64,000 nt of DNA from Candidatus Eisenbacteria bacterium (GTDB lineage: Bacteria; Eisenbacteria; RBG-16-71-46; SZUA-252). Below are positions 34,744 to 47,719 of the stretch, piece by piece. The DNA lies in NCBI GenBank assembly GCA_005893275.1, contig VBOW01000016.1, forward strand, positions 1 through 64,000. The letters run 5' to 3'. Made by a program: the position numbers and the translations under genes. The stretch's first letter is position 1. The number at the start of each line of letters is the position of its first letter. The notes under the pieces are model-generated. The model saw nothing but the letters and a program-made list of their open reading frames with translations. It made no database searches and was not told the DNA's origin.

Positions 34744-37700
34744 TTACGAAGCGGCCGCGGCGTGCTCCCGAGCCCCCGTCTGTTCCGGCCGGTCCCCCTC
34801 GGCGGCCTTCCGGCCGCCCCATCGGCGTTGGAAGGCGTCGAGGTAGGTGTAAATCACCGGGGTCACGTAGAGCGTCACGAGCTGGGAGAAGGCCAAACCG
34901 CCGACCACCGCGATCCCCAGCGGCCGGCGCGCCTCGGAGCCGGAGCCGAAGCCGATCGCGATCGGAAGCGTCCCCATCAGCGCCGCCATCGTGGTCATCA
35001 TGATGGGACGGAAGCGGATCAGGCACGCCTCGACGATCGCCTCGCGCGCCGGCTTGCCCTCCCTTCGCTCGGCGTCGAGCGCGAAGTCGATCATCATGAT
35101 CGCGTTCTTCTTCACGAGCCCCACGAGCATGATGATCCCGACGAACGCGTAGATGCTCAGCTCCGTGCGGAACAGCAGCAAGGTGAGCAGGGCGCCGAAG
35201 CCCGCAAACGGGAGCCCCGAGAGAATCGTGAGGGGGTGGATGAAGCTTTCGTAGAGAATGCCCAGCACGAGGTAGATGACGAGCACGGCCACGGCCAGCA
35301 GCACGAGAAGCCCCTTCTGGCTCGACTGGAACACCTGGGCGGTCCCGAAGAAGCTCGTCGTGATGCTCGAAGGCAGCGTCGCGCGCGCGACGCGTTGCAC
35401 TTCGTCCACCGCGTCACCGAGCGAAGTGCCGGGCCGGAGATTGAAGGAAATCGTGACGGCCGGAATCTGACCCATGTGCGCCACGCTGAGCGGACCCACC
35501 CCCGGGGAAAGCCGGGCGACGGCGCCAAGCGGCACCAGGGAGCCGTTGCTTGTGCCAATGTAGAGGTTCTGCAAGGCCGAGATGTCGCGCTGGAACTCCG
35601 GACGAAGCTCCATGATCACCCAGTACTGGTCGGTCGAAGTGAAGATGGTCGAGACCTGCCGCGATCCGAATGCATCGTACAGCGTCTCTTCGATCTGCTG
35701 CGCGCTCACGCCCAGCGCCGCGGCGCGGTCGCGGTCGATCTCCACGCTCACCTGAGGGTTCGCGATCTGCAGATCGCTGGTCACATCCTGCAGGCTGGGT
35801 AAATCTTTAAGTCGATCGACGAGATCGTTGACGCCGCTGTAGAGCGTCGCCAGGTCCGTGCTCTGGAGCGTGAACTGGTACTGGCTCTTCGCCAGCCGAC
35901 CGCCGACGTTGATCACCGGAGGGTTCTGAAGGAAGACCCGGATTCCCGGAACGCGGGCGAGCTGGGGCTGAAGCTCCCGGATGATTTCGTCCGCCGAGCG
36001 GTCCCGCTCGGCGCGCGGCTTCAGCCGGATGATGATGCGCCCCTGGTTCGAGGAAGAAACCCCTCCCCCCGAGCCCACCGAGGAGGTGAATGACTCCGCA
36101 TTCGGATCCCGCCCGATGATCGCCGCGACCGCTCGCTGATGTTGCACCATCGACTCGAACGACGTGCCCTCCGCCGTCTCCGTGCTCGCGATCAAACGCC
36201 CCGTGTCCTCGCTCGGAATGAATCCTTTCGGCACGAGCCGGAAGAGCACGAAGGTGCCGATGAGAATGCCGAGCGAAAAAACCATCGTGGCGCGGCGGTG
36301 GCGCATGACCCAGGCCAGGGTCCGGGCGTAGAAGGCGAGCGCGCGCTCGTAGAGATGCTCCACGGCCCGATACGCGCGGCCGTGCTCGCGGACAGGGTCG
36401 AGCTTGAGGAAGCGGCTGCAAAGCATCGGCGTGAGGGTCAGCGAGACGAGTCCCGAGACCAGGATGGCCGCGCTGATGGTCACCGCGAACTCGTGGAAGA
36501 GCCTTCCCAGGAGGCCCCCCATCAGGAGCACGGGGATGAACACCGCCACCAGGGAAAGCGTCATCGACACGATGGTGAAGCCGATCTCCCTGGAGCCGTC
36601 GAGAGCCGCGCGGAGGGCGCCCTTGCCCTGCTCCATGTGGCGATGGATGTTCTCGAGCATGACGATGGCATCGTCCACGACGAATCCGACCGAGAGCGTG
36701 AGCGCCATCAGGGACAGATTGTCGAGGCTGTAGCCCACCTGATGCATCACGGCGAACGTGCCGACAACCGAGAGCGGCAGGGAGAGGCTCGGGATGATCG
36801 TCGCCGGAACATTGCGCAGGAACAGGAAGATCACCATCACGACCAGCGCCAGCGTGAGAAGCAACGTGAACTGAACGTCCAGCACCGATCGGCGGATCGA
36901 AACCGATCTGTCGTAGAGGGTATGGACCTCGACGGAGGCGGGAAGCTGGGCCCGCTCCCGCTCGACCAGCCTTTGCACCGCGCCCGCCACCTCCACCGTG
37001 TTGACTCCGGGCTGGCGTTGCACGGCGAGGGTGATGCTCCGCTGGTCCTGATACCAGCTCGCGACCCTGTTGTTCTGCACGTCGTCGAGCACGTCTCCGA
37101 GATCGCGCAGCCGGACCGGCGCGCCGTCCTTGGTCGCCACGACCAGGCTCCCGAACTCCCGGGCGTTCCTCAGCTGGCCGCTCGCCATCACCGTGGCGGT
37201 CCGGGTGGGGCCGTACAAGATACCCGTCGGAAGGTTCACATTCGCCGACTGGACCGCGTCGCTCACGGCGCCGATCGGGATCCCTCTCGAAGCAAGTGCC
37301 CGCGGGTCCAGGCGGATCCGGACCGCGTACTTCTGCGAGCCGAACACGGACACCTGCGCCACCCCCTGGACCATCGAGATATGCTGCGCGAGCACGTTCT
37401 CCGCGTATTCATCCAGCTGGGACAGCGAGAGCAGCTTCGAGGTCACCACGAGAAAGAGGATCGGCTGGTCGGCGGGATTGACCTTTTGATACGAGGGCGG
37501 CGTGATCCCCGTGGGGAGCGCGCGGAGGGTTTTTGCGATCGCGGCCTGGACGTCCTGGGCGGCCGCGTCGATATTCCGCTCGAGCGCGAACTGGAGGGTG
37601 ATCGATGTGCTCCCCTGCGCGCTCGACGAGGTCATGGCGTCGATGCCCGCGATCGTCGAGAACTGCTTCTCGAGCGGGGTCGCGACCGCCGATGCCATGG

Positions 37701-37872
37701 TCTCGGGGCTTGCGCCCGGCAGGCTCGCGTTCACGGAGATCGTCGGATAGTCCACGTTCGGCAGATCGCTCACCGGCAGCAGCCTGTATCCCACGATTCC
37801 GAAGATGAGCACGCCGGCCATGACCAGCGTCGTCATCACGGGGCGCTGGATGAACATTCCGGAGAGGTTCAT
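34744..37872 (-). CDS. RND-family efflux pump, HAE1/MdtB-MdtC-like inner-membrane subunit
   Basis: Predicted 1042 residues, full length for the family. ATG overlaps the adaptor's stop by four bases. The N-terminus is MNLSGMFIQRPVMTTLV, then the pore-domain SDLPNVDYPTISV motif typical of HAE1 transporters. The fourth membrane helix has the proton-relay pair D400/D401 (GFVVDDAIVMLEN). This differs from the heavy-metal (CusA-type) helix, so a drug- or organic-substrate-type pump is more likely even though it shares an operon with a copper ATPase. It works with the adjacent adaptor lipoprotein and, presumably, the TolC encoded 6 kb away on the opposite strand. Confidence 0.95.
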   Translation of the reverse strand: MNLSGMFIQRPVMTTLVMAGVLIFGIVGYRLLPVSDLPNVDYPTISVNASLPGASPETMASAVATPLEKQFSTIAGIDAMTSSSAQGSTSITLQFALERNIDAAAQDVQAAIAKTLRALPTGITPPSYQKVNPADQPILFLVVTSKLLSLSQLDEYAENVLAQHISMVQGVAQVSVFGSQKYAVRIRLDPRALASRGIPIGAVSDAVQSANVNLPTGILYGPTRTATVMASGQLRNAREFGSLVVATKDGAPVRLRDLGDVLDDVQNNRVASWYQDQRSITLAVQRQPGVNTVEVAGAVQRLVERERAQLPASVEVHTLYDRSVSIRRSVLDVQFTLLLTLALVVMVIFLFLRNVPATIIPSLSLPLSVVGTFAVMHQVGYSLDNLSLMALTLSVGFVVDDAIVMLENIHRHMEQGKGALRAALDGSREIGFTIVSMTLSLVAVFIPVLLMGGLLGRLFHEFAVTISAAILVSGLVSLTLTPMLCSRFLKLDPVREHGRAYRAVEHLYERALAFYARTLAWVMRHRRATMVFSLGILIGTFVLFRLVPKGFIPSEDTGRLIASTETAEGTSFESMVQHQRAVAAIIGRDPNAESFTSSVGSGGGVSSSNQGRIIIRLKPRAERDRSADEIIRELQPQLARVPGIRVFLQNPPVINVGGRLAKSQYQFTLQSTDLATLYSGVNDLVDRLKDLPSLQDVTSDLQIANPQVSVEIDRDRAAALGVSAQQIEETLYDAFGSRQVSTIFTSTDQYWVIMELRPEFQRDISALQNLYIGTSNGSLVPLGAVARLSPGVGPLSVAHMGQIPAVTISFNLRPGTSLGDAVDEVQRVARATLPSSITTSFFGTAQVFQSSQKGLLVLLAVAVLVIYLVLGILYESFIHPLTILSGLPFAGFGALLTLLLFRTELSIYAFVGIIMLVGLVKKNAIMMIDFALDAERREGKPAREAIVEACLIRFRPIMMTTMAALMGTLPIAIGFGSGSEARRPLGIAVVGGLAFSQLVTLYVTPVIYTYLDAFQRRWGGRKAAEGDRPEQTGAREHAAAAS

Positions 37873-38984
37873 CCGGGACTCCCGACGGATTTTCGGACCA
37901 GCACCTTGGCGCCGGGCGACAGCCTCATTTGCCCCTCGGTCACAACCGGCTCCCCCGCGCGAAGCCCGCGCGCGACGATCGCGAGCTCATCGACGGTGCG
38001 CTCGACTTCCACGGGACGAGGCGAGACGGTGGAGTCGGCGTTCACCACGTAGACATAGGATCCCTGCTGTCCCGAGGACACGGCCAGCGCCGGAACCACC
38101 ACGGCGCGCGGCGCGACGTAGAGAACGAGCCGGACGTCGACGAACTGGCCTGGGACGAGGCGGCCGTCCCGGTTCGGGAATTCCCCCTTGAGGAGAAGGG
38201 TGCCGCTCGCCGGGTCGACCGTGTTGTCCACGAAGACCAGCTTCCCTTGGAGCGTCGTGCCGCCGCTGTCGGGCTGGACCAGGACTCGAGGATTCGAGCG
38301 GCGGTAGCGCTGGAGCAGCGGCACATCCCGCTCGGCCACCTTGAATGCAACCCGCACGGGATACGGCTGAATGATCGTCACCAGGGGGTCGCTCGTGGAG
38401 GCCCGGACGTAGTCTCCGACGTGCACCAGGAGCCGTCCCGTCCGCCCGGAGATCGGCGCCCGAATCGCCGCGTACTCGAGATTCAATCGAGCGGTGTTCG
38501 CGGCGGCCGAGTCGGCGCGCACGGTCGCGGCAAGGGCCTCGGCGTTCCCCCGCGTCTGGTCCCACTCCGACTGCGAGAGGATGTTCTGCTCGAAAAGCGT
38601 CTGCGACCGCCCGGCTTCGCTGCGCGCGGTCTCCGCCTGGGCGCGATCGCGCGCGAGCGCGGCCAGCGCCTGATCCCAGGCTTCCTGGAAAGGGCGTGGG
38701 TCGAGCTGAAACAGCACCTGCCCCTCTCGGACGTTGTCTCCCTCGCGGAACGCGACACGGGTCACGACCCCGCCCACCTGGGAGCCGATCGCCGCCGTCT
38801 GAAGGGCCTCGACGGTTCCGGTCGCCTCGAGGGCGAACGGCATATCGCGCTCGACGGCGCTTGCCAGGCTGACCGCGATCCGCGGATTCCGTTGGGCGTC
38901 CTTCTCGCCACAGCCGGCCGAAACCAGCACGAGAACGAGGCACGCGAAGGACCGCCAGGAAGGAGGCCGCGCGGGATCCCGCAT
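37869..38984 (-). CDS. RND efflux periplasmic adaptor lipoprotein
   Basis: Predicted 371 residues. The signal peptide ends in a lipobox (LVLVSAGCGEK). A lipoyl/hairpin/barrel order typical of AcrA/MexA-type adaptors follows: GTVEALQTAAIGSQVGGVVT, FREGDNVREGQVLFQLD, a helical hairpin, YAAIRAPISGRTGRL, and the membrane-proximal region to the end. It bridges the pump and an outer-membrane channel. It starts two bases after the copper ATPase stop and overlaps the pump gene (ATGA). Confidence 0.94.
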   Translation of the reverse strand: MRDPARPPSWRSFACLVLVLVSAGCGEKDAQRNPRIAVSLASAVERDMPFALEATGTVEALQTAAIGSQVGGVVTRVAFREGDNVREGQVLFQLDPRPFQEAWDQALAALARDRAQAETARSEAGRSQTLFEQNILSQSEWDQTRGNAEALAATVRADSAAANTARLNLEYAAIRAPISGRTGRLLVHVGDYVRASTSDPLVTIIQPYPVRVAFKVAERDVPLLQRYRRSNPRVLVQPDSGGTTLQGKLVFVDNTVDPASGTLLLKGEFPNRDGRLVPGQFVDVRLVLYVAPRAVVVPALAVSSGQQGSYVYVVNADSTVSPRPVEVERTVDELAIVARGLRAGEPVVTEGQMRLSPGAKVLVRKSVGSPG

Positions 38985-38986
38985 GG

Positions 38987-41320
38987 TCAGATCGCGACCT
39001 TTCTCAGGCGCAGGGCATTCCCGATGACCGAGACCGAGCTCAGGCTCATCGCGGCGGCGGCAATCACCGGACTCAAGAGCAGACCGAACGCCGGATACAG
39101 GGCTCCCGCCGCGATGGGAACGCCGATGATGTTGTAGACGAACGCGAAAAAGAGATTTTGCCGGATGTTGTCCATCGTTCGCCGGCTCAGCCGCCGCGCG
39201 CGGGCGATCCCGCGCAGATCTCCCTTGATGAGGGTGACGGAGGCGCTCTCCATCGCCACGTCGGTTCCGGTGCCCATCGCGATCCCGACGTCCGCCTGCG
39301 CCAGAGCCGGCGCGTCGTTGATTCCGTCCCCCGCCATCGCGACCACGCGGCCCTCGGCTTGGAGACTCCTCACGATCTCGATCTTCCGGTCGGGGAGCAC
39401 TTCGGCGATGACCTCATCGATTCCGAGCGCGCTGGCCACCGCCTGTGCGGTCGTGCGGCCGTCTCCCGTCGCCATGATCACGCGGATTCCTTCCTTACGG
39501 AGCGCCCGGACCGCTTCGGGCGCGCCCTGCTTGATCGGATCCGCGATCCCCACCAGCCCGGCGAGCGCCCCGTCGACGGCCACGAACATCACCGTCTGCC
39601 CCTCCCCGCGAAGCGCCTCCGCGGCCGCGCTCCAGGGTGTGACGTCCGCCCCCGTCTCATCCATGAGCGCGCGGTTGCCGAGAGCGACCTTGCGGCCGCC
39701 GACATATCCCCGGACGCCCTTCCCCGGAATCCCCTCGAACCCGCTCGCCTCGGCGGGCGTGATGCCCCGCTCGTTCGCGCCCAGGAGGATTGCGGCCGCC
39801 AGGGGATGCTCGCTCCCGCGCTCCAGGGTCGACGCCAGGCGCAGCAGCTCGGAATCGTCGACGGGGGGGAGCGCCTTCACGGTGACGAGCCGTGGCTTGC
39901 CCTCGGTGAGCGTACCGGTCTTGTCGATCACGAGCGTATCGACCCGGCCCATGAGCTGGATGGCCTCGGCGTTTCGAAACAGGATGCCCATCGCGGCCCC
40001 CCTCCCGGCCGCCACCATGATGGACATCGGCGTCGCCAGCCCCAGGGCGCACGGGCAGGCAATGATGAGCACGGCGACTGCGTTGACGATCGCGTGCGTC
40101 ATGCGTGGCTCGGGACCGAGCAGGGCCCAGACCCCGAACGTGGCCGCGGCGATCCCGATCACGACCGGCACGAAGTACGCGGAGACCAGGTCCGCGAGCC
40201 CCTGGATGGGCGCCCGGCTACGCTGGGCCTCCGCCACCATCGCGACGATGCGCGCGAGCAGCGTCTCGCTGCCGACTCTTTCCGCGCGCATGACGAACGT
40301 CCCGGTCCGGTTGATCGTGGCGCCGATCACGCGGTCGCCAGGGTGCTTCTCCACCGGGATCGCTTCCCCCGAAACCATGGACTCATCCACGGCGCTCGCG
40401 CCTTCGAGCACGACACCGTCGACGGGAACTTTCTCCCCCGGGCGGACGCGGAGACGGTCCCCCATGCGCACGACTTCGAGGGGCACGTCCTCCTCGATGC
40501 CCCCCTCCGCGACACGCCGGGCCGTTGCCGGGGCGAGGTCGAGGAGCTTGCGGATCGCCACGCGGGTCCGCCGCCGCGCGCGAAGCTCCAGCACCTGGCC
40601 GAGCAGAACGAGGGCGACGATAGCCCCCGCCGCTTCGAAATAGACACCGACCTCGCCGGAGGCGTCACGGAATGATGAGGGGAACATCCCCGGAACCAGC
40701 GCGGCCACGACGCTGTAGGCATACGCCGCGAGCACCCCCATTCCGATCAGCGTGAACATGTTGAGGCTCTTGTTCTTGATCGAGTCGATCGCCCGGGCGT
40801 AGAAGGGCCACGCGGCCCACGTGCAGATCGGGGTCGCCAGCACGAGCTCGAACAGCGTGCGCGCGCGCATGGGCATCAGGCGACCGCGCGCCGCCTCCCC
40901 GAGCATCTCTTCCATGGCGAGGAGGAGGAGCGGCAGCGCCAGCGCGACCGCGATCCAGAACCGGCGCGACATGTCGCGGAGCTCGGAATCGTCTTCCACG
41001 CCGTCCGGCCCCATCGGCTCGAGCGCCATTCCACAAATGGGGCAGGCGCCCGGGCGATCGCGGACGATCTGGGGATGCATGGGGCAGGTCCAACCGCCCG
41101 CCCGCGACGAGGGGGCGGGCGAGGGGCCGGTCAGGCGAAGTTTGGGGGCGGGATGCGTCGACGAATAGGCTTCCGGAGATGCCCGGAACGCCTCGAGGCA
41201 GTGCGCGCCGCAGAAATGAAACGTCCGGCCACCGTGCGTCGTCGAATACGGCGAGCCGGGCGGGACCCGCATGCCGCAAACGACGTCCACCGTTTCTCCG
41301 GGTGCCGACACCTGGTTCAC
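38987..41320 (-). CDS. copA: Copper-type P1B ATPase with N-terminal YHS and HMBD metal-binding domains
   Basis: Predicted 777 residues. GTG at 41320 overlaps the upstream kinase stop (GTGA), with GGAGGG in front. Residues about 11-50 form a YHS domain ([21 protein letters not shown]). Residues about 77-102 form a heavy-metal-binding domain (CPMHPQ, CPICGM). The usual CxxC HMA domain is absent. Then come the transmembrane core with CPC (422-424), the phosphorylation site DKTGT (466-470), SEHPLA, and AGDGINDAP. Helices seven and eight show [11 protein letters not shown] and [15 protein letters not shown], the Cu+ signature. It exports copper to the periplasm and is encoded between its probable two-component system and an RND adaptor. 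Confidence 0.94.
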
Positions 41321-42783
41321 GAAACCCTCCCTCCCGCTTCGGCCCGCCGTCGCGGCAGCTCGACCGTGATCGCGAGGCCACGGGGCCCATTTCCTTGGGC
41401 GCGCACGGTTCCTCCGTGCCGCTCGACGATCTCCCTGACGATCGCGAGTCCCAGACCGGAGCCCCCGTGATCGGGCGCCGGTCCGCCGCCCGACCCCGCA
41501 CCTCGATAGAACCGCTTGAAGACGAGCGGAAGCTCCGCGGCCGGAATCCCGGGTCCATTGTCCCCCACCACGAGAAGGAATCGCTCGCCTTTCCCGGCCG
41601 CGAGGTCGAGCTGGACCGAGCCTCCTTCGGGGACGTAGCGGAGCGCGTTCACGAGCAGGTTCTCGAGCACCTGTTCCATGCGGTGCCCGTCGGCGTCGAT
41701 CCACGCCTCGTCCACGGACTGATGCCACGAGAGGCTCAGACCGGCCCGCCGAAATCGTGGCTCGAATCGTTCGATCGTATTGCGGCAGAGAGACGCCCAA
41801 TCGAGCGGCTCTTTGGAAAGCGGAGCCGCCCCGGCCTCGAGTCGCGCGAGCTCGAAGAGATCCCGGATCAAGAGATCCATCCGCCGCGACTCATCCAAGA
41901 GACCGCGCACGTATTGCGTGCGCTCTTCCTGCGAGACCGGCACCCGCGGGTCGAGCAGCGTCTCAGCATACCCCCGGATCGAGGTGAGGGGCGTGGCCAG
42001 CTCGTGCGTGATATCGGCGAAGAGCTGCCGCCGTTCGAGCTCGGTCGCTTCGATTTGGGCGCGGGCGACCGCGAGCCGCTCCGTCATGCGGTTGAGCTGC
42101 TGCGCGAGCCTCCCGATCTCGTCGCCGCTCCTGTCCGCGAGCCGGACCGTGAGGTCCCCTTCGGCGACCCTCGTGGCGAGAAGCTCCATGGCGCGCAGGC
42201 GGCGAACCAGCAGGCGGACCAGCACGAGCCCTCCAAACGCCGACACCACGATCGCGATGGGAAAGAGGAGAATGGAATTTTGCGATCCGACGATTCCCAT
42301 CGCCCCGCGCGGCCGGGTCCGGCGCACCACCTGGACCTCCCCGAGCACGGTGGGGCCCCGCATCACCCCCCGGCGCGCGACGACCTCGAGGGGACCCCTC
42401 GGGTCCGGTCGGGCCGGCGGGAACGAGGAGGAGTCGCGACCCGAGCGATCGGCGAGGGCGTGCGCGATGAATCGCCACGGAGGCGCGCTGGCGACGCTCC
42501 CGTCGCTTCCCCGGAACACGATCCACGCCGGCCTCACGGCTTCGCGGTGGCGCTCGAGCAGCGAATCGAGATCCGCCCCCGTTGCCAGGTTTGGACCCGT
42601 CGCGATGGCGCCCGCCACGGCCGAGGCGGCGAGCTCCGCCCGCGCTCTGGCCTCTCTCGCCTCGAGAGGCTGAAGCACGGCGGTCGCCACCAGGGCCTGG
42701 AGCAGGGTTCCCACAACCGTCGTGAGCAGGAAGATCGCCGCGATCGTCCAGAACAGGCTCCTCCCGCGCCCGAATCCCTTCAC
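41317..42783 (-). CDS. HAMP-containing sensor histidine kinase (CusS/CopS-like position)
   Basis: Predicted 488 residues. ATG overlaps the stop of the response regulator (ATGA). Two membrane segments, at about 10-34 and 170-196, flank a periplasmic loop. A HAMP linker follows. H260 is in [13 protein letters not shown], then the N-box [10 protein letters not shown]1 DNGPGI and G2 [10 protein letters not shown]. All motifs are intact. The genes it is coupled to suggest it senses copper or envelope stress; no obvious Met/His metal cluster is seen in the periplasmic loop. Confidence 0.94.
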
Positions 42784-43511
42784 GGGGACGGCTCCGCGAA
42801 TCGATATCCCGCGCCCCAGACTGTTTGGAGATAGCTCGGGTTCGAGGGGTTCTTCTCGAGCTTGCGGCGAACCCGACTGACCAGGCTGTCGATCGATCGG
42901 TCATCCACGACGCGGTCGCTTCCCCAGACCTGCTCCATCAAAGCTTCCCGGCTGAACACCCGCCCGGGGCGCGACGCGAGGAAATAGAGCAGATCGAACT
43001 CGAGGGTCGTGAGCGGCACCGGCTCTCCCTCGCGCTCCACCGCCCGCCGGGCCGGATCGACTCGAAGGGCTCCGATCTCGAGAATCCGATCGGCGAGGGT
43101 CCCGCTCGAGCGGCGCAGAAGCGCCCGGACCCGGGCCGTGAGCTCCCCCGTGCTGAACGGCTTCGTAACGTAATCGTCCGCGCCGAGCTCGAGCCCGAGA
43201 AGTTTGTCCCCCTCGCCCGAGCGCGCGGTGACCATGAGGATCGGGACGTCGCTGTCCTTTCGGATCCGCCGGGTCACCTCGAGCCCGTCCATGCCGGCCA
43301 GGCCCAGATCCAGGACCACGAGCGCCGGCTTCAGGCGCGCGAACTCCGCGAGCGCCCGACCACCGTCGGCGGCCTGGTGACACTCGTAGCCTGCCGCTTC
43401 GAGATTCTTCGCGATCAGGTCCGCGATTCGGGCGTCGTCTTCGACGACGAGGATTCTTGGATTCGCCACCGTCTTCGCTCCAGGGGCTTCGGGTCCGGAC
43501 GCCGTGGGCAT
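42780..43511 (-). CDS. OmpR-family response regulator (CopR/CusR-like position)
   Basis: Predicted 243 residues from the ATG at 43511, with AGTAGGA upstream. A longer frame crosses the promoter region and is unlikely. The receiver has the acidic pocket VEDD, phospho-acceptor D68 (LVVLDLGLAGMDG) and K117 (YVTKPFS). A winged helix-turn-helix C-terminus ends in LQTVWGAGYRF, the OmpR/PhoB hallmark. It is the first gene of the five-gene efflux operon. A 15-bp motif repeated in inverted orientation sits just upstream and is a natural candidate for its binding site, implying autoregulation and control of the divergent tolC genes. Confidence 0.94.
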   Translation of the reverse strand: MPTASGPEAPGAKTVANPRILVVEDDARIADLIAKNLEAAGYECHQAADGGRALAEFARLKPALVVLDLGLAGMDGLEVTRRIRKDSDVPILMVTARSGEGDKLLGLELGADDYVTKPFSTGELTARVRALLRRSSGTLADRILEIGALRVDPARRAVEREGEPVPLTTLEFDLLYFLASRPGRVFSREALMEQVWGSDRVVDDRSIDSLVSRVRRKLEKNPSNPSYLQTVWGAGYRFAEPSP

Positions 43512-43540
43512 CGCACATCCTACTGTACGCGTAAAGTTTT

Positions 43541-43618
43541 GCAGAGATGTGGCGCGAGCGTGCCCATTTATGGCCTCGGGTTGTCCGAGAAAATGCCAAT
43601 CGAGCGCCACATCTCTGC
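43541..43618. promoter_or_regulatory. Symmetric divergent promoter pair with 15-bp inverted arms
   Basis: The arm GCAGAGATGTGGCGC (43541-43555) is exactly complementary to GCGCCACATCTCTGC (43604-43618), with 48 bp between them. Read toward each operon, the motif GCGCCACATCTCTGC is followed at the same distance by a -10-like hexamer. On the minus strand ACATCT, then 17 bp, then TACAGT (43527-43522). On the plus strand ACATCT, then 17 bp, then TATCTT (43632-43637). GCG immediately precedes both hexamers. Because ACATCT is a poor -35, an activator bound to the arm would be needed. I infer one regulator, probably the adjacent response regulator, controls both operons. Confidence 0.7.
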
Positions 43619-43743
43619 CATAACCCCGGCGTATCTTCTCCGTAGATGAGCGGCCCGTGGCCCGGGAGGTTCCAGGTCGCGCGAAACGCGGAGCCGGATG
43701 CGCGGGTCTCTGTCCTAACAGCTTTGGCGGCACGGAGGTTCAA

Positions 43744-45057
43744 ATGGTTCGCCGGATCATGGGTCCCTTGCTTGTGATCGCGCTCGGTTCTGCGTTCGGT
43801 GGGGCGGCCGCGGAGCCGCGTCCCATCTCACTCGAAGAGGCGGTCGCGCTCGCGCAGCGCAACGCGCCGCAAGCGGTCCAGGCACGGGGTCAGTCGCGCA
43901 GCGCCGCGGCCGGAGTCCGCGCGGCCTACTCCGCGTTCCTCCCGAGCGTGAGCCTCACGGCCGGAGCCACGCGCCAGTTCGTCTCCGGCGGCCGAACGCG
44001 GATTGAAAACGGGCAAGTGATCACGCTCCCATCGGACCCGTGGTCCTCGAGCGTCGGCCTCGGAGCGAACGTGGATCTATTCACGGGGGGCCAGCGCTTC
44101 TTTGATTTGCGGCAGGCCCAGGCGATTCAGATCGCCGCCGAAGGGAACGAGACGATGCAGCAATACGACGCGGCCCTCGCCGCGAAGCAACAGTTCTTCA
44201 ACGTGCTCGCTGCTCGTGAGTCGCAAGGAGCGGCGGCCGCCCAGCTCGAGCAGGCCGAGCAGCAAAGGAAGAGCGCCATCGCACGGACCCTGGCCAGGGT
44301 GGCGACCCGCTCGGATTCGCTTCGGGCGGAGATCCAGTATCGGACCGCGCAGCTCGCGGTGACCGACGCGCAGAACGGGCTCGAATCGGCGAACGCCTCC
44401 TTGGCGCGGGTCGTGGGGTCTCCGCAGCCGGTCACCGCCGTGCAGGTCGACTCTCTCGAGCACCCCGGCTTGGCAATCGACGAGACGTCGCTGCGCCAGC
44501 TGGCGGAGAACGGTCCGGCCGTGCGGCAGGCAAAAGCCGGGCTGGACGCCGCGAAGGCCGCGCAGCGTAGCGCTTGGACCGATTACCTCCCCTCCCTCGC
44601 CGCGAGCTACTCGCGCACCGGAAGCGGTACCGGAAACGCACCGGTTCTCGCGGGAAATGATTTCAGCTATTCGGGCGCGCTCCGATTCTCGGCATCCCTC
44701 CCGCTCTTCAATCAATGGCAGCGCGAGGAGCGGATCACCCAGGCCAAGGTCGCGCAGGAGAACGCCGAGGCGGCCCTGCGCGACGCGCGCCTCGCCGCGG
44801 TCGAGACCTTGACGCGGCAGCTCGGCGCGTTCCGGTCGGCCGGGGAACGCGTGGCGTCGCAGGCCGCTTCGGTGGCGGCCGCCGAAGAAGATCTCCGCGT
44901 GCAGCAACAGCGATACGCCGTCGGCGGATCGACCCTGCTCGACGTCCTGACTTCCCAGACGCAGCTGAACGAGGCGCGCCGGGACCTCATCCGGGCGCGT
45001 TACGACCAGCGCGTCGCGAAGGCGGAGCTCGAGGCGTTGGTGGGAAGGGAGCTGTAA
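43744..45057 (+). CDS. tolC: TolC-family outer-membrane efflux channel
   Basis: Predicted 437 residues. ATG at 43744 follows CGGAGG; an upstream in-frame start overlaps the regulatory region. There is a signal peptide (MGPLLVIALGSAFGGAAAEP). Two tandem OEP repeats follow (ISLEEAVALAQRNAP; DETSLRQLAENGPAVRQAKA), each with long coiled helices and a beta segment (YSAFLPSVSLTAGATRQF; WTDYLPSLAASYSRTG). This is the channel of tripartite efflux systems. It begins a rightward operon with a MacA-like adaptor and a MacB-like permease, but could also serve the divergent RND pump, which has no channel of its own. Confidence 0.93.
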   Translation: MVRRIMGPLLVIALGSAFGGAAAEPRPISLEEAVALAQRNAPQAVQARGQSRSAAAGVRAAYSAFLPSVSLTAGATRQFVSGGRTRIENGQVITLPSDPWSSSVGLGANVDLFTGGQRFFDLRQAQAIQIAAEGNETMQQYDAALAAKQQFFNVLAARESQGAAAAQLEQAEQQRKSAIARTLARVATRSDSLRAEIQYRTAQLAVTDAQNGLESANASLARVVGSPQPVTAVQVDSLEHPGLAIDETSLRQLAENGPAVRQAKAGLDAAKAAQRSAWTDYLPSLAASYSRTGSGTGNAPVLAGNDFSYSGALRFSASLPLFNQWQREERITQAKVAQENAEAALRDARLAAVETLTRQLGAFRSAGERVASQAASVAAAEEDLRVQQQRYAVGGSTLLDVLTSQTQLNEARRDLIRARYDQRVAKAELEALVGREL

Positions 45058-45060
45058 GCC

Positions 45061-46494
45061 ATGGCGAGCGTGGGCCGCGCCGAAAAACCCGTGGGTTTGC
45101 GCCGGGCCGCCCAGCGTCCCCTGGTCCTGGCGCTCGTCGCGCTGGCCTCGATCGCCGCGATCCTCCTGGTCCGCGGAGCGCGGCACCGGTCCGGCGCGCA
45201 GGAGGTCCTGGCCGTTCCCGTCGAGCGACGCGACATCGCGGTCACGATCGAAGCGACCGGGGCCGTCGAGCCGATCGATCTCGTTGAGGTGAAATCGAAA
45301 GCCTCCGGACAGATCGTCCGGATGCCCGTGCAGGTCGGCTCCACCGTCCGCAGAGGCGATTTGCTGGCGCAGATCGATCCCCGGGACGTCCAGAATCAGT
45401 ACAGCCAGTCCCTGGCGGCCCTCGACGCGGCCCGAGCCAAGGCGGAAATCTCAGGGACGCAGAAGAAGCGTTCGGACGATCTCTTCGCGACACAGGTCAT
45501 CACCGCCGAGGAGCACGAGAGCGCCATCCTCGATTACGCGAACGCCCAGGCCGCGCTCGTGAAGGCGGCGGCGGACCTCGATCTCGCGAAACAGCGCCGG
45601 GAAGATGCGACCGTGCGCGCCCCCATCGGAGGAACCATCCTGGACCAAGCCGTCTCCTCCGGACAGGTGATCTCGTCGGCCACCTCTTCCGCCAGTGGCG
45701 GAACCACGCTTCTCCATATGGCCGACTTGGCCAAGATACGCCTGCGCGCGTTGGTCGGGGAGACCGACATCGGAAGCGTGCGACCGGGGCAAACCGCCAC
45801 GGTTACCGTCGACGCTTTCCCACAACGCACCTTCACGGGCCGGGTCGAAAAAATCGAGCCCCAGGCGGTCGTACAGCAATCGGTCACCATGTTCCCGGTG
45901 CTCATCTCCGTCTCGAACGAGAGCCGTCTGCTTCTGCCCGGGATGAACGGCGAGGTGTCGATGCTCGTCGACCAGCGGGAAAACGTCCCGGCGATCCCGG
46001 TCGACGCCGTCCGCGGCGCGCGCGAGATGCCGGTCGTCGCGGCCGCGCTCGGCTTGGATGCCGCCCGCGTTCGGGCGCAGGTCGACGAGCAGTTGAGGCC
46101 GCGGGCGGCCGGGCGGGCGACACGTTCCGGCGCCTCGGACTCGAGCCCCGGACGCGGGTTCCGGGCGGCCGCGCAGGGCACGCGCGCGGGCGGCGCGGGG
46201 CGCGCCAGCCGGGCGCAGGTTGCGTTCGTGAAGACCGCGGCCGGGCTTGAGCCCCGTGTCGTGCGGCTCGGGCTGAGCGATTTTGATTACGCCGAGGTCC
46301 TGGACGGGGTCGAAGCAGGAGAACAGGTCGTCCTCCTGGGGGTCGCCGAAGCCCAGGCGTCTAGGGCCGAAACCCAAAACCGGATCCGCCAGCGGCTCGG
46401 GAGTGGAGTGCCGGGCGTCCCGGGGACAGGCGGCGGGAGCGCCCGCGGCGGCGGTCCCGGCGGAGGCCGGGGCGGCCCCGGCGGGGGGCCTTAG
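45061..46494 (+). CDS. MacA-like periplasmic adaptor of an ABC export system
   Basis: Predicted 477 residues, starting three bases after the tolC stop. It has a membrane anchor at about 20-38 (LVLALVALASIAAILL). The membrane-fusion order follows: EATGAVEPIDLVEVKSKASG, GSTVRRGDLLAQIDPRD, a coiled hairpin, DATVRAPIGGTILDQAVSSG, and a beta-barrel with TVTVDAFPQRTFTGRV. A long Ala/Arg/Gly linker (about residues 345-385) interrupts the C-terminal part, which ends in a Gly-rich low-complexity tail of about 30 residues. It should join the MacB-like permease to TolC. The tail and linker are longer than is typical. Confidence 0.92.
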   Translation: MASVGRAEKPVGLRRAAQRPLVLALVALASIAAILLVRGARHRSGAQEVLAVPVERRDIAVTIEATGAVEPIDLVEVKSKASGQIVRMPVQVGSTVRRGDLLAQIDPRDVQNQYSQSLAALDAARAKAEISGTQKKRSDDLFATQVITAEEHESAILDYANAQAALVKAAADLDLAKQRREDATVRAPIGGTILDQAVSSGQVISSATSSASGGTTLLHMADLAKIRLRALVGETDIGSVRPGQTATVTVDAFPQRTFTGRVEKIEPQAVVQQSVTMFPVLISVSNESRLLLPGMNGEVSMLVDQRENVPAIPVDAVRGAREMPVVAAALGLDAARVRAQVDEQLRPRAAGRATRSGASDSSPGRGFRAAAQGTRAGGAGRASRAQVAFVKTAAGLEPRVVRLGLSDFDYAEVLDGVEAGEQVVLLGVAEAQASRAETQNRIRQRLGSGVPGVPGTGGGSARGGGPGGGRGGPGGGP

Positions 46495-46495
46495 G

Positions 46496-47719
46496 ATGCG
46501 GATCGGCGAGACCATCACCGTCGCGCTCGAAGCGCTCCGCGCGAACAAGCTGCGCTCGTTTCTGACCATGCTCGGCATCGTGATCGGGGTGGGGGCGGTG
46601 ATCGCCATGGTGGCGCTCGGTCGGGGGGCGCAGCAATCGGTTCGGGACCGCATCGCCTCCCTTGGAACCACGCTCCTGAGCGTGTTCCCGGCACAGGCGC
46701 GCGGCGCGGGCGGCGTCGCCTCCTCCAGCGAGCGCGCGCCGCTCGCGATCGACGACGCCAAAGCGATCGAGGACCGGTCCACGCTGGTGGCGGCGGTCCA
46801 ACCGGAGATGTCGCGCTCGCTCCAGGTGCAGTACGAGAACCGGAACGTGAATACTTCGATTGTCGGAACGACCGCGAACTATCTCGAGGTCAGGAAGTTC
46901 GCGATCGAATCCGGGCGCATGTTCAGGGGCGCCGAGGACGCGGCGCGCAGGCGGGTCGCGGTGCTCGGGCAGCAGGTTCTCACCGATCTGGGGCTGGGAT
47001 CAGGCGAGGCGCTGGTCGGCGCGGAGGTCCGGATCAACGGAATTCAATTCGAAGTCATCGGCGTGCTCGCGCCGAAAGGCCAGGGCGGGGGGTTCGCGAA
47101 CCCCGACGACCAGGTCTTGGTCCCGATCCAGACGGCACGCTACCGGCTGATCGGGAACGACCGGCTTCGCTCCATCAGCGTCCTGGCCCCCTCGGAGGAC
47201 GACATCCCGGTGACGATGGCGGAGGTCCAGAGGATCCTTCGGCGCGAGCACCGCCTGAGGCCGGGCCAGGATGACGACTTCGTGATCCGCAACCAGGCCG
47301 ATTTCCTGACCACCCTGGGCGAAACCACCCGCGTGTTCACATATTTGCTCGCGGGGATCGCGGCGGTGAGTCTGCTCGTGGGCGGAATCGGAATCATGAA
47401 CATCATGCTCGTTTCGGTGACGGAGCGGACCCGCGAGATCGGCATCCGAAAAGCGCTCGGCGCCACACAAAGAACCATCCTCCTCCAGTTCCTGATCGAG
47501 GCGGTGGTCCTCTGCCTCCTGGGCGGCACGATCGGAATCATCCTCGGAGCGGGCTCCGCGATGATCGCGCGGAGCGCGTTTCAATGGAGCACATCGGTGG
47601 GGGCCTCGTCGGTCGTGATCGCGTTCGTGTTCGCGGCCGCCGTGGGCATTCTCTTCGGGGTCTGGCCGGCCCGACGTGCGGCTTCGTTGGACGCGATGGA
47701 GTCGCTGCGCTACGAATGA
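46496..47719 (+). CDS. MacB-like ABC permease without ATPase domain
   Basis: Predicted 407 residues; ATG one base after the adaptor stop. Its N-terminus (RIGETITVALEALRANKLRS) enters the first membrane helix (FLTMLGIVIGVGAVIAMV). The large periplasmic MacB core domain follows (TANYLEVRKFAIESGRMF), then three C-terminal helices with GGIGIMNIMLVSVTERTREI and GIRKALGAT. Canonical MacB has an N-terminal ATPase of about 230 residues, which is absent here. No ABC ATPase gene lies in or beside this operon, so a partner must be encoded elsewhere. It exports peptides, lipids or macrolide-like compounds by analogy. The 3' end overlaps the convergent kinase gene by 10 bp. Confidence 0.93.
   Translation: MRIGETITVALEALRANKLRSFLTMLGIVIGVGAVIAMVALGRGAQQSVRDRIASLGTTLLSVFPAQARGAGGVASSSERAPLAIDDAKAIEDRSTLVAAVQPEMSRSLQVQYENRNVNTSIVGTTANYLEVRKFAIESGRMFRGAEDAARRRVAVLGQQVLTDLGLGSGEALVGAEVRINGIQFEVIGVLAPKGQGGGFANPDDQVLVPIQTARYRLIGNDRLRSISVLAPSEDDIPVTMAEVQRILRREHRLRPGQDDDFVIRNQADFLTTLGETTRVFTYLLAGIAAVSLLVGGIGIMNIMLVSVTERTREIGIRKALGATQRTILLQFLIEAVVLCLLGGTIGIILGAGSAMIARSAFQWSTSVGASSVVIAFVFAAAVGILFGVWPARRAASLDAMESLRYE

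Follow-up and report, generated by a model that had tools for sequence, protein, structure and literature searches.

Predicted paired operators of the OmpR/PhoB type between two divergent efflux operons of a Candidatus Eisenbacteria genome

The two efflux operons that diverge from a common intergenic region in the window, i.e., the whole 64,000-nt stretch of DNA analysed here, are very probably both activated by the neighbouring response regulator, which would act via paired divergent operators of the OmpR/PhoB type; this reading comes from the comparison of sequences. The operators are of a familiar kind, come from a poorly known bacterial group, and are unusually well conserved.

The leftward operon (all genes on the minus strand) encodes an OmpR/PhoB-family response regulator with Response_reg and Trans_reg_C domains (42783..43469, probable GTG start, by Pfam and alignment), a sensor histidine kinase (41317..42783; HAMP, HisKA, and HATPase_c in domain searches), a copper-type P1B ATPase with YHS and HMBD domains that is a lineage-specific member of the operon (38987..41320), an MdtA-like RND periplasmic adaptor (37869..38984), and an MdtB/MdtC-like RND permease, which is of the HAE1 type and not CusA (34744..37872). 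The rightward operon (plus strand) encodes a TolC-family outer membrane efflux protein (43744..45057), a MacA-like periplasmic adaptor (45061..46494), and a MacB-like permease with MacB_PCD and FtsX domains and without an ATPase domain of its own (46496..47719).

Inverted arms and tandem half-sites

The intergenic region contains two arms, GCAGAGATGTGGCGC at 43541-43555 and GCGCCACATCTCTGC at 43604-43618, that form an exact 15-bp inverted match with 48 nt between them. In each direction, ACATCT within the arm is separated by 17 bp from a -10-like hexamer that is directly preceded by GCG, namely, TACAGT leftward (43527-43522) and TATCTT rightward (43632-43637). The arms, the equal spacers, and the GCG had been described correctly in a first-pass annotation of this DNA, which also held that such matched geometry was unlikely by chance, and this judgement is borne out: the arms are the sole inverted repeat of at least 13 bp at a gap of up to 100 nt in the entire window, and among 1,000 dinucleotide shuffles of the intergenic sequence, the longest inverted repeat was 13 bp (typically 7), with 15 bp reached in 0/1000. 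A chance similarity without function, for which nothing speaks beyond the doubt attached to any single sequence, has a vanishingly small probability in view of these shuffles and of the conservation across families of the class.

The genome-wide search for additional copies that the annotation had proposed was run on the complete genome: the exact 15-mer occurs twice, both times at this locus, and all further near-copies have at least two mismatches and a frequency equal to the background of a reversed-pattern control. Two exact inverted arms at this distance might also be the terminal repeats of a small mobile element, or they might form an RNA hairpin or terminator, but this is exceedingly improbable. 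Terminal repeats have been ruled out by the lack of dispersed copies in the genome, and a hairpin or terminator by the location of both arms upstream of the -10 hexamers, i.e., in neither transcript; furthermore, the arms are kept over families, whereas the sequence between them and its length vary (45-105 nt).

By alignment, the 15-bp arm is a fragment of a larger tandem element of 22 bp (33 bp on the right side), and the two arms are identical because each of them contains half-site 1 and the first letters of half-site 2. The consensus of an ungapped alignment of 17 boxes is YGCCACATCTC-TGCCACAnnnn-nnGnG-TAnnnT. On both sides, the column profile of the half-site has its best self-match at shifts of -11 (0.90) and +11 (0.93), with values of at most 0.81 elsewhere; therefore, the element consists of direct repeats in a row and is not a palindrome, with head-to-tail half-sites about 11 bp apart as in operators of the OmpR/PhoB family.

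In the left operator (minus strand), the alignment of the 17 boxes places half-site 1, CGCCACATCTC, at 43544..43554 (profile match 43523-43554) and half-site 2, TGCAAAACTTT, at 43533..43543, and 5 bp after this tandem repeat follows TACAGT (43522..43527), the predicted -10 hexamer of the regulator operon. A possible degenerate third half-site, GGGCACGCTCG (43555..43565), is weakly conserved on this side. In the right operator (plus strand), half-site 1 is again CGCCACATCTC (43605..43615; profile match 43605-43637, E 2e-6) and half-site 2, from the same alignment, is TGCCATAACCC (43616..43626), with TATCTT (43632..43637), the predicted -10 hexamer of the TolC-MacA-MacB promoter, likewise 5 bp after the tandem repeat; both hexamers were assigned from sequence and alignment. 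Most of the genomes aligned have a third half-site (TGCCA...) ahead of these two on the TolC side; in the window, it is TGCCAATCGAG (43594..43604), at whose position TGCC or TGCCA is kept in most relatives. TAnnnT stands at a fixed register in 14/17 boxes and is shifted downstream by one base in two others, and it occurs just twice at the other scanned offsets across all 17 box sequences; it is absent from the usual place in one box of G006 and in the rightward box of G045.

ACATCT, which had been read as a -35-like element, straddles positions that vary among relatives while the half-site letters are constant, and has been rejected as a sigma-70 -35. A fixed mirror complex of the two boxes has been ruled out as well: the box-to-box distance ranges from 45 to 105 nt among relatives, and therefore the boxes would act as separate promoters.

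Conservation and co-occurrence with the regulator

Relatives were found by searching related genomes with the adjacent response regulator, and all genomes belong to one class. Seven relatives from two families of the class (G003, G001, G004, G006, G034, G018, and G028) share an arrangement in which the genes of regulator and kinase diverge from a TolC-MacA block, and one box facing each way is present in 7/7; an eighth syntenic genome, G045, which was identified later, carries both divergent boxes. The first-pass annotation had called for a comparison of the intergenic motif across related genomes and had named as evidence against its proposal the absence of the arms from close relatives in which both operons persist; no such case was found, and both boxes are kept in every syntenic relative. 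In G012, a box precedes the regulator gene and the contig ends upstream.

In leave-one-group-out scans (SIGNIFICANCE by held-out tests), for which a weight matrix of the 18-bp core was rebuilt each time without the tested group, the two boxes rank first and second in every syntenic locus, with 6-128 thousand positions covered per locus. In the window, they score 22.5 and 21.3 bits, and the next best of 127,966 positions scores 11.2. A 33-bp profile finds in the genome itself just these two sites at E up to 10 (150 of 529 first-look candidates scored).

Among 47 genomes of the class, the box is present in 16 at E up to 0.1, and an orthologue of the regulator (at least 59% identity) in 18. The box was found in 15 of the 18 genomes with the regulator versus one of the 29 without it (15 genomes with both, 3 regulator-only, 1 box-only; Fisher p 1.6e-8, a value that is overstated because the genomes are related). 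G045 is counted as regulator-only at E 0.1, yet has both boxes below that threshold; G022 and G040, with a regulator of 60-69% identity, have no detectable box. The box lies directly after the kinase gene in G005 and G012, and in G044 it precedes a series of genes of which regulator and kinase are the last; thus, the motif appears to move with the regulator.

The genome itself holds 37 protein matches to the regulator, and it might be argued that a paralogous OmpR/PhoB-family regulator owns the sites. This is quite improbable, as the box co-occurs with this particular clade and travels with its genes in the three genomes just named, and as the recognition helix is near-invariant within the clade. 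Binding by the adjacent regulator is thus the reading preferred here.

Two peculiarities of single relatives should be mentioned. G034 (L160 1501-1533) and G003 (L161 1501-1533) have an extra box before a gene for an exported protein of about 500 aa that is alike in both, and in G006 (L047 9819-9850), the ATG of the regulator follows the predicted -10 at a distance of 6 nt, which would make the mRNA leaderless.

The regulator and its predicted mode of action

The regulator consists of a receiver domain (PF00072) and a winged-helix Trans_reg_C domain (PF00486), both above cut-off. Its start is probably the GTG at 43469, which has GGAG upstream and yields 229 aa; the ATG upstream at 43511 (43509-43511), which would give a reading of 243 aa, is not kept in G003. 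As the GTG agrees better with the conserved start of the protein, the gene would probably begin about 72 bp from the arm, and not 30 bp as had been annotated. The family scores are below the cut-off for the PhoB equivalog (229.1 bits, cut-off 296.2), for the BaeR equivalog (216.2 bits, cut-off 380), and for TIGR01387, the CopR/CusR/SilR heavy-metal regulators (165.5 bits, cut-off 279.2); by this measure, the regulator is neither PhoB nor BaeR nor CopR. Nevertheless, a likeness to PhoB exists in the conserved polymerase-contact residues: W184, G185, V190, and D192, which mutations tie to polymerase binding in PhoB (PMC3348028), are all kept. The equivalents of the phosphorylation residues E9, D10, D53, T83, and K105 and the DNA-helix residues R193, D196, R201, and R203 are kept as well; PhoB positions 198, 200, and 219 differ (L, S, and W).

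PhoB binds direct repeats of the 11-bp type, as in phoA (PMC10294691), and, jointly with the C-terminal domain of sigma, occupies the -35 zone (PMC3348028). The sequence record of E. coli phoA reads TGTCATAAAGT-TGTCACGGCCG-AGACT-TATAGT (11+11+5+6), and the right box, CGCCACATCTC-TGCCATAACCC-CGGCG-TATCTT, has the identical layout. In both directions, the second half-site begins 16 bp before the -10 and a -35 hexamer is absent, as in class-II promoters with a Pho box; the differences from the Pho box of PhoB are the half-site, which is YGCCA and not TGTCA, and the targets, which are efflux operons. From the phoA-like layout and the conserved polymerase-contact and phosphorylation residues, we infer that the regulator activates both promoters, its own included.

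In the proposed mechanism, the arms would be the cores of two divergent operators, each made up of 11-bp half-sites (YGCCACA) in direct repetition, a pair towards the regulator gene and a triplet towards TolC, with a TAnnnT -10 following after 5 bp. The partner kinase would phosphorylate the adjacent regulator, the signal being envelope stress or a toxic compound, and the phosphorylated regulator would bind each array as a dimer or trimer, head to tail, occupy the place of the -35, and contact sigma-70 as PhoB does. Leftward transcription would cover regulator, kinase, (CopA), and the MdtA/B-like RND genes, i.e., it would include positive autoregulation, and rightward transcription would cover TolC-MacA-MacB. 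Within this scheme, we infer the binding by the adjacent regulator, the control by phosphorylation, activation over repression, and the type of signal.

The same regulator at the same operators could instead block the polymerase when bound and be released on signalling, considering that at both promoters the box overlies the -35 zone and that PhoB can itself repress from other positions (PMC10294691). However, repression is unlikely: both -10 hexamers lie at exactly the same distance from the box as in phoA, an activated promoter, a sigma-70 -35 hexamer is absent from the -35 zone, and the layout is kept in all relatives. The earlier suggestion of a single shared regulator for both operons, most simply the adjacent one, is strongly supported by the conservation of the arms, the 11-bp layout, the Pho-box distance, the co-occurrence, and the lack of other strong sites in the genome. 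That this switching of the operons would be an activation is drawn just from the geometry.

Efflux, envelope stress, and known systems

The leftward operon had been described as a copper ATPase/RND operon. Genes for an ATPase and an RND pump are indeed present, but the permease is MdtB/C-like (400 against the CusA/CzcA family, cut-off 701) and CopA is not a constant member. The P1B ATPase gene is found in the operons of the window and of G001, and in G018 the kinase gene is followed straight by that of the adaptor; the ATPase not being constant in the operons of relatives, copper is therefore not the common theme. The locus resembles CusRS/CopRS in that the regulator gene adjoins a metal ATPase and an RND pump, and differs in that regulator and kinase (148 against the heavy-metal kinase family, cut-off 293) score below the heavy-metal cut-offs, the RND pump is not CusA/CzcA, and CopA is missing from the operons of G003 and G018. 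Copper-specific regulation finds no support in these family scores or in the operon content and was rejected. At the place of the P1B ATPase, G003 encodes an unrelated exported protein (L041 4619-5266; cf. L044 10845-10949).

Variation is also seen on the other side. An ABC ATPase gene, which G034 and G004 have between the regulator and TolC genes (L043 3094-3891; L045 8958-9749), is missing at that place in the window. The MacB-like permease having no ATPase domain, the pump may borrow its ATPase from elsewhere; the best ABC ATPase candidate in the same genome (61%) belongs to a different efflux-like gene group (G000:C19:73157-73846). A gene for a small glycine-rich exported protein, absent in the window, comes first in the rightward operon of several relatives (L043 2318-3097; L045 9746-10385; L044 7558-8715).

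In AdeRS-adeABC of Acinetobacter baumannii, the direct repeat to which the regulator binds lies in the spacer of the divergent genes (PMC11892822), and the AdeR motif is the 10-bp repeat AAGTGTGGAG-N-AAGTGTGGAG (PMC10052836). The locus described here likewise has two-component genes divergent from a pump operon and a direct repeat in the spacer; in contrast to the single motif described there, the boxes here are two, in opposite orientation, and would serve two pumps. Judged by sequence, the layout is that of a Pho-box-type class-II promoter pair in a genetic setting that resembles AdeRS-adeABC.

Outside the syntenic arrangement, the box also precedes genes for exported proteins rich in LTXXQ-like motifs (G031, G025, G011, G014, G010, G012, G005, and G044). 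Of five such proteins scanned with Pfam, one had PF07813, the family of Spy and CpxP, above cut-off, three had a weaker match, and one had none. LTXXQ/Spy-like lipoproteins with an upstream box were noted in six relatives, in some cases at a great distance from the regulator genes (L141, L150, L151, L152, L158, and L159); the single LTXXQ gene in the genome of the window has no strong box. BaeSR of E. coli and Salmonella is an envelope-stress two-component system linked to the RND pump MdtABC and to Spy. The likeness lies in the MdtA/B-like pump of the operon and the LTXXQ/Spy-like genes with a box in relatives, the difference in a regulator that scores below the BaeR cut-off and in another operon order. 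The content of the putative box regulon suggests envelope stress plus efflux, comparable to BaeSR; as the single LTXXQ gene of the genome of the window lacks a strong box, such a role would be tentative there. Beyond this, and at an even balance of confidence, the regulator clade could run an envelope-stress response of its own, in which a YGCCACA operator with an 11-bp period would join the MdtB/C-like RND pump, MacAB-TolC, and, in relatives, Spy-like LTXXQ lipoproteins, the operator remaining constant as lineages rewired the regulon.

For a lineage without genetics, the analysis thus proposes a concrete operator of a two-component system, with a regulon of two promoters, and two different classes of pumps would be linked to one switch. 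The PhoB-type promoter layout (11+11+5+-10) appears to be held with another half-site sequence, and such a layout may be useful for predicting the targets of OmpR/PhoB-family regulators elsewhere.
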